This document shows, one piece after another, positions 31,010 through 51,812 of a DNA stretch of 64,000 bases. Below the pieces are notes generated by a model. The model made no database searches and was not told the origin of the DNA. It saw nothing but the letters and a program-made list of their open reading frames with translations. The DNA is from Rhodobacter sp. GTDB lineage: Bacteria > Pseudomonadota > Alphaproteobacteria > Rhodobacterales > Rhodobacteraceae. Every line of letters starts with the position of its first letter. Within the stretch, counting starts at the first letter, position 1. The DNA lies in contig PNJK01000012.1 of NCBI GenBank assembly GCA_013821825.1, positions 1-64,000 of the forward strand, read 5' to 3'. Position numbers and translations under genes: made by a program.

Positions 31010-32200
31010 ATGTCCTTCCAGAACCCCGTCTTCATCCCCGGCCCGACCAATATTCCGGACTCGGTCCGCAAAGCCTGCGACATACCGACGATCGACCACC
31101 GTTCGCCCGCCTTCGCGCGGATGTTCAAGCCTGCGGTCGAAGGCGTGCGCCGCGTGCTGAAGATGACCGAGGGTGAGGTCATCCTGCTCCCCTCGACCGG
31201 AACGGGCGGCTGGGAGGCGGCGGTGACCAACACGCTTTCCCCAGGCGACACGGTGCTTGCTGCGCGCTTCGGCATGTTCAGCCACCGCTGGATCGACCTT
31301 TGCCAGCGTCATGGGTTGAACGTCCAGATCATCGAGACCCCCTGGGGTCAGGGCGCACCGCTTGCCGCCATCGAGGCCGCGCTGAAAGCTGACAAGACCG
31401 GCACGATCAAGGCCGTTCTCGCCACCCACAACGAGACCGCAACCGGCGTGAAATCCGACATCGGCGGCATTCGCCGGGCGATGGCCGCGGCCGGACATGG
31501 CGCGATGCTCTTTGTCGATGGCGTCTCATCAATCGGTTCCATGCCGTTCGAGTTCGCCGGCTGGGGCGTCGATGTCGCCGTTGCAGGCAGCCAGAAGGGC
31601 TTCATGCTGCCCGCCGGTCTCGCGATCCTCGGGATCAGCCCCAAGGCCATCGCGGCCATGGACACCGCCAGACTGCCGCGCACCTTCTTTGATTTCAAGG
31701 ACATGCTAACCTCCTACGCCAGGGGTGGCTTTCCCTATACCCCCCCGGTCGGCCTGATCGCGGGCCTTGCCCATGCCATCGACCTGCTGGAGGACGAGGG
31801 GCTTGAGAACGTTTACGCGCGCCATCACCGTCTTGCCGAAGGCGTGCGCCGCGCGATCACCGCATGGGGGATGAGCCCCTATGCCGTCTCGCCCGACCTT
31901 TACTCAGACACCGTGACCGCGGTAAAATTACCCGACGGCTGCAACGGCACCGACCTCGTCCAGTTGGCCGCCAGCAAATACGGCGTGGCTTTCGGCGTAG
32001 GCCTGGGCGAAGTTGCGGGCAAGGTCTTCCGCATCGGCCATCTGGGCAGCCTGACCGATGTCATGGTGCTGTCGGGCCTGGCCACAGCCGAGATGTGCAT
32101 GGCCGATCTTGGCTGGAACATCCGGCTTGGCTCGGGTGTCGCCGCAGCACAGGAATTCTACCGTGGCACCGCGCGCTCTCTGGCACTTGCGGCGGCGTGA
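31010..32200 (+). CDS. bhcA: L-aspartate:glyoxylate aminotransferase BhcA
   Basis: A 396-residue PLP enzyme of the serine-glyoxylate/alanine-glyoxylate aminotransferase class. It opens FIPGPTNIPDSVRKACDIPTIDHRSPAFARM, has STGTGGWEAAVTN (PLP phosphate site), D170 in FVDGVSSIG, and the Schiff-base lysine K196 in GSQKGFMLP. In the beta-hydroxyaspartate cycle it converts glyoxylate to glycine with aspartate as donor. Identification rests on the conserved bhcABCD order with divergent bhcR. AAGGGAGAG precedes the start. Confidence 0.92.
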   Translation: MSFQNPVFIPGPTNIPDSVRKACDIPTIDHRSPAFARMFKPAVEGVRRVLKMTEGEVILLPSTGTGGWEAAVTNTLSPGDTVLAARFGMFSHRWIDLCQRHGLNVQIIETPWGQGAPLAAIEAALKADKTGTIKAVLATHNETATGVKSDIGGIRRAMAAAGHGAMLFVDGVSSIGSMPFEFAGWGVDVAVAGSQKGFMLPAGLAILGISPKAIAAMDTARLPRTFFDFKDMLTSYARGGFPYTPPVGLIAGLAHAIDLLEDEGLENVYARHHRLAEGVRRAITAWGMSPYAVSPDLYSDTVTAVKLPDGCNGTDLVQLAASKYGVAFGVGLGEVAGKVFRIGHLGSLTDVMVLSGLATAEMCMADLGWNIRLGSGVAAAQEFYRGTARSLALAAA

Positions 32201-33172
32201 ATGATGAAGGACCTCACCATGCTGATCCCGACCTACGACGACGTGCTGGCCGCCCATGCCCGCATTGAACCCTACATCCACCGCACGCCGGTCCTGACCT
32301 CCAGCTACCTGAACGACCTGACCGGGGCCGAGCTGTTCTTCAAATGCGAGAACTTCCAGAAGGCCGGGGCGTTCAAGGTCCGCGGCGCCTGCAATGCGGT
32401 CTTCGGGTTGTCGGACGCGATGGCCGCCAACGGCGTCTGCACCCATTCCTCTGGCAACCACGCGCTCAGCCTCTCCTACGCCGCAGGTCGGCGGGGCATT
32501 CCCTGCAACGTCGTCATGCCCCGGACCGCTCCGCAGGCGAAGAAAGACGCCGTGCGCGGCTATGGCGGGGTGATCACCGAATGCGAACCCTCCACCTCCA
32601 GCCGCGAGGCGGTCTTTGCCGAGGTTCAGGCCCGCACCGGGGGCGAATTCGTCCACCCCTACAACGACCCGCGCGTGATCGCCGGGCAGGCGACCTGTTC
32701 CCGTGAGCTGCTGGATCAGGTCGAAGGCCTTGACGCAATCATCGCCCCGATTGGCGGCGGCGGCATGATCTCGGGCACCTGCCTGACGGTATCGAACATC
32801 GCCCCAGGCGTCGATATCTACGCGGCCGAGCCGAAGAACGCCGACGACGCTTTCCGCAGCTTCAAGGCCGGGTACATCATCGCCGACGACGCGCCGGAAA
32901 CCGTGGCTGACGGGCTGAAGGTCCCGCTCAAGGACCTGACCTGGCACTTCGTCAAGAACCACGTCACCGATATCTTCACCGCCTCCGAGGAAGAGATTGT
33001 CGAGGCAATGAAGCTGACCTGGAAGCGCATGAAGATCGTAATGGAACCCAGCTGCGCCGTGCCGCTGGCCACGATCCTGAAACACAAGGACGTCTTTCGC
33101 GGCCACCGCGTCGGCGTCATCATCACCGGCGGCAACGTCGATCTGGACAATCTGCCTTGGATGAAAGGGTAA
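32201..33172 (+). CDS. bhcB: beta-Hydroxyaspartate dehydratase BhcB
   Basis: A 323-residue fold-type II PLP enzyme of the serine/threonine dehydratase family. The PLP lysine K59 is in NFQKAGAFKVRGA; SSGNHALSLSYAA binds the phosphate region, and GGGGMISG is the glycine-rich phosphate loop. It removes water from (2R,3S)-beta-hydroxyaspartate to give iminosuccinate. It starts immediately after the bhcA stop; alternative ATGs are one and six codons in. Without context it would be annotated threonine dehydratase or serine racemase. Confidence 0.92.
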   Translation: MMKDLTMLIPTYDDVLAAHARIEPYIHRTPVLTSSYLNDLTGAELFFKCENFQKAGAFKVRGACNAVFGLSDAMAANGVCTHSSGNHALSLSYAAGRRGIPCNVVMPRTAPQAKKDAVRGYGGVITECEPSTSSREAVFAEVQARTGGEFVHPYNDPRVIAGQATCSRELLDQVEGLDAIIAPIGGGGMISGTCLTVSNIAPGVDIYAAEPKNADDAFRSFKAGYIIADDAPETVADGLKVPLKDLTWHFVKNHVTDIFTASEEEIVEAMKLTWKRMKIVMEPSCAVPLATILKHKDVFRGHRVGVIITGGNVDLDNLPWMKG

Positions 33173-34340: not shown

Positions 34341-34423
34341 CCTTCCGTACCGGCCCAAATATCCCACGGGGGGCGCGGGGGGTGTGAAACCCCCGCTCCC
34401 ACCGCCTGCAAAAGGAACCCCCG
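34341..34423 (-). repeat. 83-nt intercistronic repeat cassette, copy A (bhcC-bhcD)
   Basis: The whole spacer from bhcC stop to bhcD start. In the direction of transcription it has CCCAAATATCCCACGGGG (from 34354), a hairpin with loop GTGAA (GCGGGGGGT / ACCCCCGC), and a purine-rich AAAAGGAA ending at the ATG. Copy C (allE-allA) has the same length and layout, with 16 of 23 identical bases between hairpin and start codon and different but still paired stem bases. In the orientation used for the family the box reads GGGATATTTGGG on the minus strand. Confidence 0.8.
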
Positions 34424-35481: not shown

Positions 35482-36450
35482 ATGCGGGTCTTCGTGAACG
35501 GTTTCGGACGGATCGGCCGGTCAGTCCTGCGCGCCTGGGCCAAGGGGGCATCGCCGGGGGTCGAGATCGTCGGGATCAACGACATCGCAGCACCCGAGAT
35601 GTGCGCCTATCTCTTCCAGTTCGACTCGGTTTTCGGCCCGTGGGCGGGGACCGTGGCGCTTGCAGGTGGGGCGCTGGTGGTGGATGGGCGGCCAATTCCG
35701 CTGCACCGCGCGGTTGACCTCACGACGCTGGATCTTTCCGGCGTCGATGTGGTGATGGAATGCACCGGCCGCGCCGAAAGCCGGGATGTGGCCGAGCGTG
35801 GGTTGCGGGCGGGGGCGCGACGCGTCCTGATCTCGGGTCCTTCCAGCGCGGCTGAGGTGACGGTGGTCCTCGGTGCAAACGACGGCGCGCTGCGCGACCA
35901 AAGGATCGTGTCGAACGCCAGCTGCACGACGAACGCCCTCGCCCCGCCGGTCAAGCTACTGGACCGGCATTGGGGTGTGGTCACCGGGTCGATGACGACG
36001 ATCCACTGCTATACCGGCAGCCAGCCGACCGTTGACGCCCCCGCCGCCGACTTTGCCCGCAGCCGGGCAGCGGCCTTGTCGATGGTGCCGACGACAACCA
36101 GCGCGCAGCGACTTCTGGATCAGGTCCTGCCCGAGGTGGCGGGGCGGATCATGGGGTCGGCGGTGCGGGTGCCGGTCGCCAGCGTCTCTTGCGTCGACCT
36201 GACCGTACTCACCGACCGGCCCGTCAGCGTCGAGGCCGTGAACGCGGCTTTCCGGGCAGCGGGAGGGGTGATCGGGACGACCGACCTGCCGCTGGTTTCC
36301 TCTGACCTGCGGGCGCGGGGGGAGAGCATCGTGATGGCCTGCCCGGAGACGAGGATCACCCCGCAGGGGCTGTGCCGCGTCTTCGGGTGGTACGACAACG
36401 AATGGGGGTTTTCCAACAGGATGCTGGATATGGCCCGCCTGATGGGGTGA
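35482..36450 (+). CDS. Glyceraldehyde-3-phosphate dehydrogenase-like protein
   Basis: A 322-residue GAPDH-superfamily enzyme. It starts VFVNGFGRIGRSVLRAW (NAD fold), has the active site SNASCTTN with C148, H175 in MTTIHCYTGSQPTVD, the RVPV-type AVRVPVASVSCVDLT and the C-terminal YDNEWGFSNRM. It is somewhat shorter than the about 335-residue housekeeping enzyme and diverges in usually strict places (VSCVDLT for VSVVDLT). It may be a second GAPDH or an erythrose-4-phosphate dehydrogenase-like enzyme. It follows bhcD by 98 bp in the same direction but probably has its own promoter. Confidence 0.88.
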   Translation: MRVFVNGFGRIGRSVLRAWAKGASPGVEIVGINDIAAPEMCAYLFQFDSVFGPWAGTVALAGGALVVDGRPIPLHRAVDLTTLDLSGVDVVMECTGRAESRDVAERGLRAGARRVLISGPSSAAEVTVVLGANDGALRDQRIVSNASCTTNALAPPVKLLDRHWGVVTGSMTTIHCYTGSQPTVDAPAADFARSRAAALSMVPTTTSAQRLLDQVLPEVAGRIMGSAVRVPVASVSCVDLTVLTDRPVSVEAVNAAFRAAGGVIGTTDLPLVSSDLRARGESIVMACPETRITPQGLCRVFGWYDNEWGFSNRMLDMARLMG

Positions 36451-36560
36451 TGTCCACAGTGGGTCAACTGGGAGACTTGGGAAAATCAAGGGGTTAGCGG
36501 AGAGCGGTAAGGGTTTGGCAGGGATTGGAGGGCGCAAGGGCATCTGGATTGGGGTGGGGA

Positions 36561-36612
36561 CTGGAGGGTTTCACACCCTCCAGACCTCCCGTGGGATATT
36601 TGGGAACAGGTG
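36561..36612 (+). repeat. Hairpin repeat, copy B
   Basis: CTGGAGGGT and ACCCTCCAG form a perfect 9-bp stem around TTCAC, followed by CCCGTGGGATATTTGGGAAC. The box and loop equal those of copies A and C, but the stem bases are different and still complementary. No start codon with ribosome-binding site follows on the reverse strand, so it appears as a stand-alone copy between the GAPDH-like gene and the convergent DUF1330 gene. Confidence 0.8.
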
Positions 36613-36699
36613 AATGGGGGGAAGTCACCCGCCAGACCTTGATGCAGGATGCGGCGAAGGACCGATCCGAGTCCTTGGTGGACAAATAATGGCGCGGTG

Positions 36700-41057: not shown

Positions 41058-41140
41058 CGGTGGCCCCTTTCTCGGGCGGCGGGAGCGAGGGGTTTCACAC
41101 CCCTCGCGCTCCCCGTGGGATATTTGGGAACAGAAGAAGA
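41058..41140 (+). repeat. 83-nt intercistronic repeat cassette, copy C (allE-allA)
   Basis: The complete spacer from allE stop to allA start, of the same length as copy A. Plus-strand order: GCGAGGGGT - TTCAC - ACCCCTCGC hairpin (41084-41106), then CCCGTGGGATATTTGGGAAC. In transcript direction (minus) the box comes first and the hairpin second, then AAAGGGG and the allA ATG 23 nt after the hairpin block, exactly as for bhcD. Confidence 0.82.
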
Positions 41141-45451: not shown

Positions 45452-45473
45452 GCGGCAGCGCGGCGAAACAGGG

Positions 45474-45503
45474 AAAGGCGGGGCTTCGGTCCCGCCTTTC
45501 TCG
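45474..45503. terminator. Bidirectional rho-independent terminator
   Basis: AAAGGCGGG and CCCGCCTTT pair over nine bases around GCTTCGGT, followed by TCTCGTT on the plus strand. It lies between the convergent DUF2125 and LysR genes and its A/T-rich stem base suits both directions. Confidence 0.8.
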
Positions 45504-45516
45504 TTGGACAGCGGCC

Positions 45517-47778: not shown

Positions 47779-47783
47779 CAGGG

Positions 47784-47830
47784 CCAAAACTCTTCGAAGA
47801 GTTTTGCAAATTCCTTCGAAGGAATTTGGT
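47784..47830. repeat. Tandem palindrome repeat, copy 1 (possible bidirectional terminator)
   Basis: Two perfect 20-nt palindromes, AAAACTCTTCGAAGAGTTTT (47786-47805) and AAATTCCTTCGAAGGAATTT (47808-47827), are joined by GC. Each is centred on TTCGAA. The element starts just behind the puuD stop and ends at the stop of the convergent GFA gene, so it may end both transcripts. An element with the same layout lies at 56873-56914. Confidence 0.85.
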
Positions 47831-51739: not shown

Positions 51740-51812
51740 GGGGCGCCGCCCCCCCCCGGGCCATGCGGCCCGTCCCCCCCGGGGGGATATTTTTGCAAAG
51801 AGGAAGCTGGGC
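51740..51812 (-). repeat. Diverged relative of the hairpin repeat, copy D
   Basis: Read on the minus strand it has CTTCCTCTTTGCAAAAATATCCCC followed by a G-run, a hairpin CGGGCC-GCAT-GGCCCG and a G/C-rich tail. The start resembles copy C, whose box is preceded by CTTCTTCTGTT. It lies between the convergent DUF1203 and polA genes, without a downstream start codon. The long C/G runs are prone to sequencing error. Confidence 0.55.

Follow-up and report, generated by a model that had tools for sequence, protein, structure and literature searches.

A dispersed palindromic element at gene ends of Rhodobacteraceae, with an arm that goes with the genome and a stem and tail that go with the site

Why two unrelated operons of one Rhodobacter genome carry intercistronic spacers of the same length and layout is the question raised by the bhcC-bhcD junction. 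In the window, by which we mean the whole stretch of 64,000 nucleotides analysed, the initial annotation had read this spacer (A) and the allE-allA spacer (B) as copies of a cassette, placed from stop codon to start codon in two operons concerned with glyoxylate and supplying the ribosome-binding site of the downstream gene, and had proposed a covariance-model search for further copies. The features concerned are the following.

34341..34423, plus strand: spacer A, the 83 nt between the bhcC stop and the bhcD start, occupied by a single element copy and its tail
34343-34400, plus strand: model match of copy A, 61.4 bits (covariance model)
34343..34353, plus strand: arm of copy A, TTCCGTACCGG, atypical of its own genome
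34357..34370, plus strand: core of copy A, AAATATCCCACGGG
34371..34400, plus strand: hairpin of copy A, GTGAA loop at 34384-34388
34401..34423, plus strand: tail of copy A with AAAAGGA (SD), up to the bhcD ATG
36557..36615, minus strand: copy C, reversed, 77.6 bits, 106 nt downstream of a GAPDH-like gene (35482-36450, plus strand)
41058..41140, minus strand: spacer B, the 83 nt between the stop of the (S)-ureidoglycine aminohydrolase gene (allE) and the start of the ureidoglycolate lyase gene (allA)
41081-41139, minus strand: model match of copy B, 76.9 bits (covariance model)
41112..41125, minus strand: core of copy B, AAATATCCCACGGG
41081..41111, minus strand: hairpin of copy B, GTGAA loop at 41094-41098
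41058..41080, minus strand: tail of copy B, GAAAGGGG (SD)
51752..51806, minus strand: fourth copy, a weak match of 29.3 bits, in which the head CTTCCTCTTTGCAAAAATATCC is joined to a different GC-rich hairpin

Direct reading bore out the description of the two spacers. Both measure 83 nt from stop to start, CCCAAATATCCCACGGGG stands 13 nt (A) and 12 nt (B) past the stop, a hairpin with a GTGAA loop is present in each with 23 nt from the hairpin block to the ATG, the tails are identical at 16 of these 23 positions, and the same succession of pyrimidine-rich arm, core, hairpin and weak tail with SD purines makes one element of both. When ATG start contexts were compared pairwise (400 kb of the genome from which the window comes, hereafter the own genome), 7 of 47,586 pairs matched at 16 positions at least. 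For an 18-mer with up to 3 mismatches the number of matches expected in the window is 0.04 and the number observed is three, in A, in B and, on the minus strand at 36587-36604, in C; behind the hairpin of copy C no same-strand start is present. BhcA, BhcB, BhcC, BhcD and the (S)-ureidoglycine aminohydrolase have NCBIfam matches above the cut-off, and the gene behind spacer B matches ureidoglycolate lyase with 235 bits, below the cut-off of 260. The shared length itself is a coincidence and no property of the element: gene gaps of exactly 83 nt make up 2 of 357 sampled in the own genome, and among the 14 own copies that follow a stop and precede a same-strand start, the span is 72-135 nt in 11 (A and B included) and the called start lies more than 350 nt away in 3, in an analysis that lost the loci lacking a core (8/45 own, 3/30 and 4/30 in the congeneric genomes G006 and G013, respectively).

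The proposed search, run on the own genome and on Rhodobacterales, found a dispersed family. The string CCAAATATCCCACGGG, allowing 2 mismatches, has 28 matches in the own genome and none for the reversed control, and a covariance model (R1) built on 24 own copies gave 68 matches there at E<=1, 47 of them at E<=0.001, the threshold at which G006 has 95 copies and G013 has 92. Under stricter filters, with which weak matches are lost, 24-92 matches per genome were counted across 25 genomes of the genus, an order-wide sample of 121 genomes from 59 genera showed matches in 101 of the genomes (20 being without a match) and 55 of the genera, and none occurred in 16 genomes of 16 other families of the class; since R1 was built from own copies, it favours their arm types. 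An exact-pattern scan returned at least 118 stretches and, among the matches listed, 80 named loci with 82 copies. Among these matches listed, 77 of the 80 titles name Rhodobacteraceae, Rhodobacterales or a member genus, genera which we take to belong to that family and order, and the other 3 loci are metagenome-assembled genomes titled just Alphaproteobacteria, Proteobacteria or Pseudomonadota. Above the gathering score, Rfam recognises only a tRNA in the window and only a tRNA in ten element loci. The element is therefore a member of a dispersed, non-coding family of Rhodobacteraceae that lies outside Rfam. A search of the open-licence literature by title and start of abstract returned no description of such a family, and Rhodobacter, Paracoccus and Roseobacter are absent from the main text of two REP surveys (PMC3733652, PMC12306157).

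At its 5' end the unit has an arm some 11 nt long; then come 2-3 free linker nucleotides, AAATATCC(CACGGG), a GC-rich palindrome and a weak tail like CCAGCCAAAGG. The stem, mostly of 8-9 bp, is a near-perfect palindrome, and the loop is GTGAA in 142 of 169 copies, 3 of 172 having been dropped for want of a clear hairpin. The arms of 35 own copies are TTCCTCTCTG in 20, TTCTTCTGTT in 8 and others in 7, copy A belonging to a rare type. Both common arms together with AAATATCC also stand before other hairpins of the own genome (L409, L423, L424 and L431); in L409, L424 and L431, from about position 1501, arm and core are followed by a common second block like AGAGGCGAGACAAAGGCTTG, a further type of payload. 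In L427 the common arms with AAATATCC form both ends of one near-symmetric palindrome, and in L427 and L440 (501-600) TTCTTCTGTTC..AAGTATCCCCGCCGGAGGC stands opposite GCCTCCGGCGGGGATATTT..GAAACAGAAGAA, perhaps an ancestral form whose ends are inverted. Four loci (L113, L125, L140 and L365) have a second, headless hairpin like GGTGCGGGGGTGTGAAACCCCCGC in tandem behind the element. Outside elements, exact common arms of the own genome were found three times in genes, once with a decayed core and twice in gene-free sequence (L437 at 533 and L438 at 628, with no core behind and no gene called); the 18 arm matches that had no locus include 9 known copies of the element and 6 others with no exact common arm. 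AAATATCC was also considered as a general signal of all gene ends and rejected, AAATATCCC being absent from a 400 kb sample of the own genome.

Part by part, 29 orthologous pairs among the own genome, G006 and G013 were compared, a set to which nine G006-G013 pairs had been added, a further pair matching on a single flank being left out, and from which the own copies L042, L045 and L046 had been dropped as matching on a single flank; arms were compared with a shift of at most 1 nt (2 nt for the named assemblies) and the other parts unshifted. Orthologues have the same stem string in 13 of 29 pairs, as against 6.8% of within-genome pairs, and tail agreement is 6.69 of 12 positions between orthologues as against 4.11 within a genome. 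The arm behaves differently, its likeness (of 10) being 7.31 between orthologues, 7.41 between different sites of one genome and 6.58 between different sites of different genomes, with identical arms in 8 of 29 orthologous pairs versus 32.2% within a genome and 15.0% at different sites of different genomes. By genome pair, identical arms number 7/13 (own and G013), 0/7 (own and G006) and 1/9 (G006 and G013). The own genome and G013 have a common arm type, and with 7 of 13 orthologous arms identical against 41% within a genome the arm is there no less tied to the site. The same stem with a different arm was seen in L037/L353, L039/L354 and L055/L376 (own or G013 versus G006), and likewise between the own genome and G013 in L035/L379 and L047/L383.

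A comparison independent of R1, with assembly labels entered by hand from record titles, points the same way. Among the 82 named copies (among the matches listed), arm agreement in the 17 same-assembly pairs is 9.06 of 11 positions as against 6.22 when shuffled (0 of 2000 shuffles as high), with no effect for the stem base (0.18 versus 0.23 shuffled, 1533/2000) or the tail (286/2000) and a small one for the linker (23/2000). Against a genome-specific arm it counts that two or three arm types coexist per genome, that the pairs of SW2 and clean1042 have unlike arms, and that the Ja1 pair resembles copies of a longer unit. Taken together, the arm is inherited with the genome, stem and tail with the site. 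Since the linker letters beside the arm stay variable, whole heads being copied explains the likeness of arms poorly; selection by an agent that reads the arm would account for it better. We lean, by a small measure, towards a dispersed, REP-like palindrome with a head that a putative genome-specific factor recognises.

The strongest rival, which we regard as rather unlikely though well worth weighing, is an element selected at the mRNA level, in which a hairpin, intercistronic or at a 3' end, would shield the message upstream of it and fix the relative output of adjacent genes, the sequence family being secondary. Its precedent is the puf operon of Rhodobacter capsulatus, a member of the same bacterial family, which has a hairpin between its genes; deletion of this intercistronic hairpin region was reportedly carried out by Klug in 1987 (cited in PMC6238624), and to our knowledge the puf hairpins are specific to their operon and do not form a dispersed family. 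The history of fixed junctions speaks for this rival. BhcD and AllA, each searched in 32 genomes of the genus, yielded 30 loci apiece. Upstream of BhcD a long hairpin spacer was found in 24 of 30 loci (77-119 nt in the 23 measurable), namely this element, in part decayed, in 15, a relative in reverse, bearing GGAGTATTT or something close to it, in 6 and other hairpins in 3; the other loci are 4 distant homologues with 2-17 nt, a contig start inside the gene and a fragment. Upstream of AllA the spacer is 64-130 nt in 28 of 30 loci, with 17 of an AAATAYYCC type or decayed head and 8 and 3 of two other hairpin types, the remaining two loci having no same-strand neighbour or an overlapping one. 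With types assigned by eye, some from decayed heads, a hairpin spacer is thus kept at 24 of 28 readable BhcD junctions and at 28 of 30 AllA junctions despite swaps of family. The bhcD gene tree requires at least 7 changes of type, at least 3 changes of hairpin family being forced by starred branches (for this element), and 15 of 200 shuffles were as low; on the weak allA tree at least 10 changes are required, 1 of them forced, and 136 of 200 shuffles were as low. In related species these junctions also hold other palindromic spacers known from these genomes, which are unrelated in sequence and lack the AAATATCC head, except for the reversed GCCTCCGGCGGGAGTATTT type, which has a related head, AAATACTCC.

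Neighbouring junctions offer side observations of a similar kind. The bhcA-bhcB junction (32200-32201) measures 0 nt in the window; in four congeners it ranges from -4 to 11 nt, and four others have a double hairpin of 74-94 nt there, a gain or loss of an intercistronic hairpin. At 47779-47829 of the window the space between convergent genes consists of a different palindromic repeat, CAAAACTCTTCGAAGAGTTTTG CAAATTCCTTCGAAGGAATTTG, and double hairpins similar to it occur at the bhcA-bhcB and bhcD-GAPDH junctions of some congeners.

What counts against selection of the message is first the make-up of the stem. In the 24 own copies the stems do differ and stay complementary, as originally described, and three of five covariation measures (paired cells, 30 cells changed on both sides, and the covariation score) exceed all 500 shuffles; pairs with two-sided change were equalled in 116 and further pair types in 498 of the 500. 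A set of 228 copies was then examined, for which pairing at 6 of 9 positions was required and of which 77 came from a pattern in which the four pairs nearest the loop are preset. In 211 of them every pair over 7 bp is Watson-Crick, and of the 19 stem cells that deviate two are G-T, both at pair 5. With G-U intermediates nearly absent from a near-perfect DNA palindrome, covariation is no proof of selection on RNA, and complementary changes are not in themselves a sign of RNA structure. Template switching at palindromes can keep stems perfect and make double changes in one event (PMC8794818), and since it can mimic compensation, the covariation does not decide for RNA. Terminator-like hairpins were tried as a control for G-U pairs and found uninformative (169 G-U versus 152 A-C), since they are mostly chance hairpins. 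Fold z-scores against shuffles were -0.16 for copy A and -1.44 to -2.15 for four other copies; a pairing between arm and tail was dropped, as the five single folds disagree on long-range pairs. Moreover, there is no preferred orientation among own copies or listed named loci, and an mRNA-level function leaves the conserved 14-nt core and the genome-specific arm unexplained.

An improbable alternative is a selfish or neutral miniature mobile element, MITE- or REPIN-like, tolerated solely at gene ends, whose arms are alike because it spread recently. Its rarity between divergent genes would fit, as would the symmetric arm-core-arm palindrome of L427 and a site empty in the own genome (L107) and filled in G006 (L325), where ATGACC flanks both sides and 4 of the 6 letters are forced by stop and start codons. 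Against such a history stand the arms, which differ repeatedly between species at sites with identical stems, a pattern not given by spread of the whole element, and the sharing of sites: of 17 G013 copies examined, 12 lie at sites where the own genome has a copy, 1 faces own DNA without a copy and 4 have no own DNA compared. Old shared sites with turnover, and exchange with other hairpin families at one junction, are what the comparison shows. Inverted ends are absent from the alignment of own copies; one relative, L427, is symmetric.

REP, BIME and REPIN sequences of E. coli, Pseudomonas and others are, like the present element, short dispersed extragenic palindromes without coding capacity, and the copy numbers (47 own, 95 in G006 and 92 in G013) are in keeping with such a class. 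REP elements, too, lie mainly between co-directional and convergent genes (PMC3733652). The element differs from REP in its conserved 14-nt core, its near-perfect stem with a GTGAA loop and its genome-specific arm, which changes at inherited sites. In two alignments a GTAG or CGTC tag was not constant on either side of the palindrome, the constant part before the stem being ACGGG. The RAYT/Y1 transposase PF01797 was not found in the own genome (97.9% complete), nor above the cut-off in any of 32 congeners (2 of the 32 gave weak matches; the control was positive in 5 of 14 genomes), and a RAYT-driven REP was rejected on this ground.

Placement relative to genes bears on the two remaining readings. 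With genes called by a caller trained on the window, the 47 own copies fall into 15 that lie forward between stop and start, 16 that lie the other way round between genes of one direction, 9 in convergent and 2 in divergent gaps, 3 at contig edges and 2 inside called genes, and the 82 copies of the 80 named loci, among the matches listed, comprise 26 forward, 23 reversed, 24 convergent, 2 divergent, 6 at edges and 1 in a gene. The position at gene ends was correctly foreseen, the own genome and the listed named loci agreeing. A random 59-mer placed in gaps (400 kb each) falls between co-directional, divergent and convergent genes in 74%, 17% and 9% of cases in the own genome and in 40%, 35% and 25% in G006; with the convergent background ranging from 9% to 25% the convergent excess is not robust, and the scarcity between divergent genes is. 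An opposite-strand stop lies within 28 nt of the hairpin end in 22 of 27 copies facing such a stop. The element thus marks the 3' ends of genes in either orientation. Nine of ten neighbour proteins tested have a Pfam match, every one of a different kind (ABC ATPase, PqiA, acyltransferase, GAF, homocysteine S-methyltransferase, xylose-isomerase-like barrel, ArgJ, GAPDH and phosphoesterase). On plasmid records of Paracoccus, a reversed copy occupies the nrdE-nrdF junction of P. aminovorans, a forward copy separates two ABC ATPase genes of P. alcaliphilus, the site of the P. pantotrophus copy is without annotation, and a copy on plasmid II of P. aminovorans is flanked by genes annotated as divergent, an exception to the rule in an incomplete gene table. 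Replication polarity in G006 gave strand arcs that were not significant for all 95 copies (95 of 500 shuffles as high); on G006:C1 the 54 strongest copies, a cut chosen post hoc, form one long and mostly minus arc (5 of 500 shuffles), which fails to match the GC skew of 20 sampled stretches.

The initial annotation is accordingly upheld in part: one element does stand in two unrelated operons, but it is limited neither to two operons nor to glyoxylate genes, as there are 47 own copies and the neighbours tested are of unrelated kinds, on which ground glyoxylate-specific regulation was also rejected; a mark of gene 3' ends in either orientation, rare between divergent genes, is no glyoxylate-specific cassette. 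An intrinsic or bidirectional terminator is very improbable, for the element does lie directly behind stop codons, convergent gaps included, but the forward sequences examined have no U-run behind the hairpin, on the reverse side of the alignment 10-12 nt separate the stem from AUAUUU, and starts some 23 nt behind the hairpin require read-through, there being no room for a promoter where a same-strand start stands at exactly 23 nt (7 of the 15 copies with a start within 30 nt). An ordinary intrinsic terminator, kept in congeners, lies nearby in the window at 45452-45516 (GGCGGGGCTTCGGTCCCGCCTTT), in contrast to the element.

Equally improbable is the stop-to-start cassette that supplies a ribosome-binding site and sets downstream translation. 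The 11 own forward tails are indeed alike beyond chance in the 23 nt before the start (8.91 positions versus 6.57 at random, 0 of 300 draws) and, as had been predicted, slightly so beyond the SD purines (3.27 of 9 positions upstream of the SD versus 2.38 for random starts, n=11, 1 of 300 draws as high), the distance from hairpin to start is near-constant, a start lying within 30 nt past the hairpin end in 13 of 15 forward copies and in both divergent copies, and 8 of the 16 reversed copies have a start no more than 15 nt from the arm, the complement of which is purine-rich. A role in the context of the start codon is therefore possible for up to 23 of the 47 own copies. A cassette of fixed direction nevertheless fails, since just 15 of 47 own copies lie forward between stop and start, 16 being reversed and 2 divergent, since the 9 convergent copies have no start to serve, and since the tail signal is weak and present before stop codons too (CAGCC[AC] in 8/53 tails before starts, 6/44 and 5/53 before stops and 10/728 controls). 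The element is no dedicated translation switch for bhcD or allA.

Returning to the REP-like palindrome with a recognised head, we may hypothesize that arm and AAATATCC are bound by a putative sequence-reading factor, protein or RNA, whose preference would drift between genomes and drag the copies along. The perfection of the stem might be maintained in the DNA itself, through template switching or a palindrome-reading factor, and any effect on the host operon would be secondary, the transcribed hairpin acting perhaps as a passive barrier in the mRNA as in puf of R. capsulatus; the purines of the tail would serve as SD where a start follows. A more daring form of the idea, to which we give somewhat less than an even chance, is a family-wide set of gene-end palindromes with a 'dialect' in the head, in which inherited copies change their arm in step and without moving, through a putative trans-acting reader of arm and AAATATCC, and in which copies of opposite orientation could pair in trans between messages. 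Dialect motifs such as those of DNA uptake or Chi-like sites are short, with a version common within a genome and differing between taxa; the element differs from them in numbering about 45-95 copies per genome (three genomes) and in being bound to a hairpin and to gene ends.

Palindromes at the ends of bacterial genes are usually written off as selfish repeats or terminators, and here their parts can be told apart. The separable inheritance of stem and tail on one side and arm on the other offers a handle on what maintains such elements, and the predicted reader molecule could be fished for with the arm sequence. The family also warns that 'compensatory' changes in the stem among dispersed copies need not imply a function of the RNA. 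Finally, the bhcC-bhcD junction illustrates that an operon can retain a hairpin spacer while the hairpin family within it is swapped.
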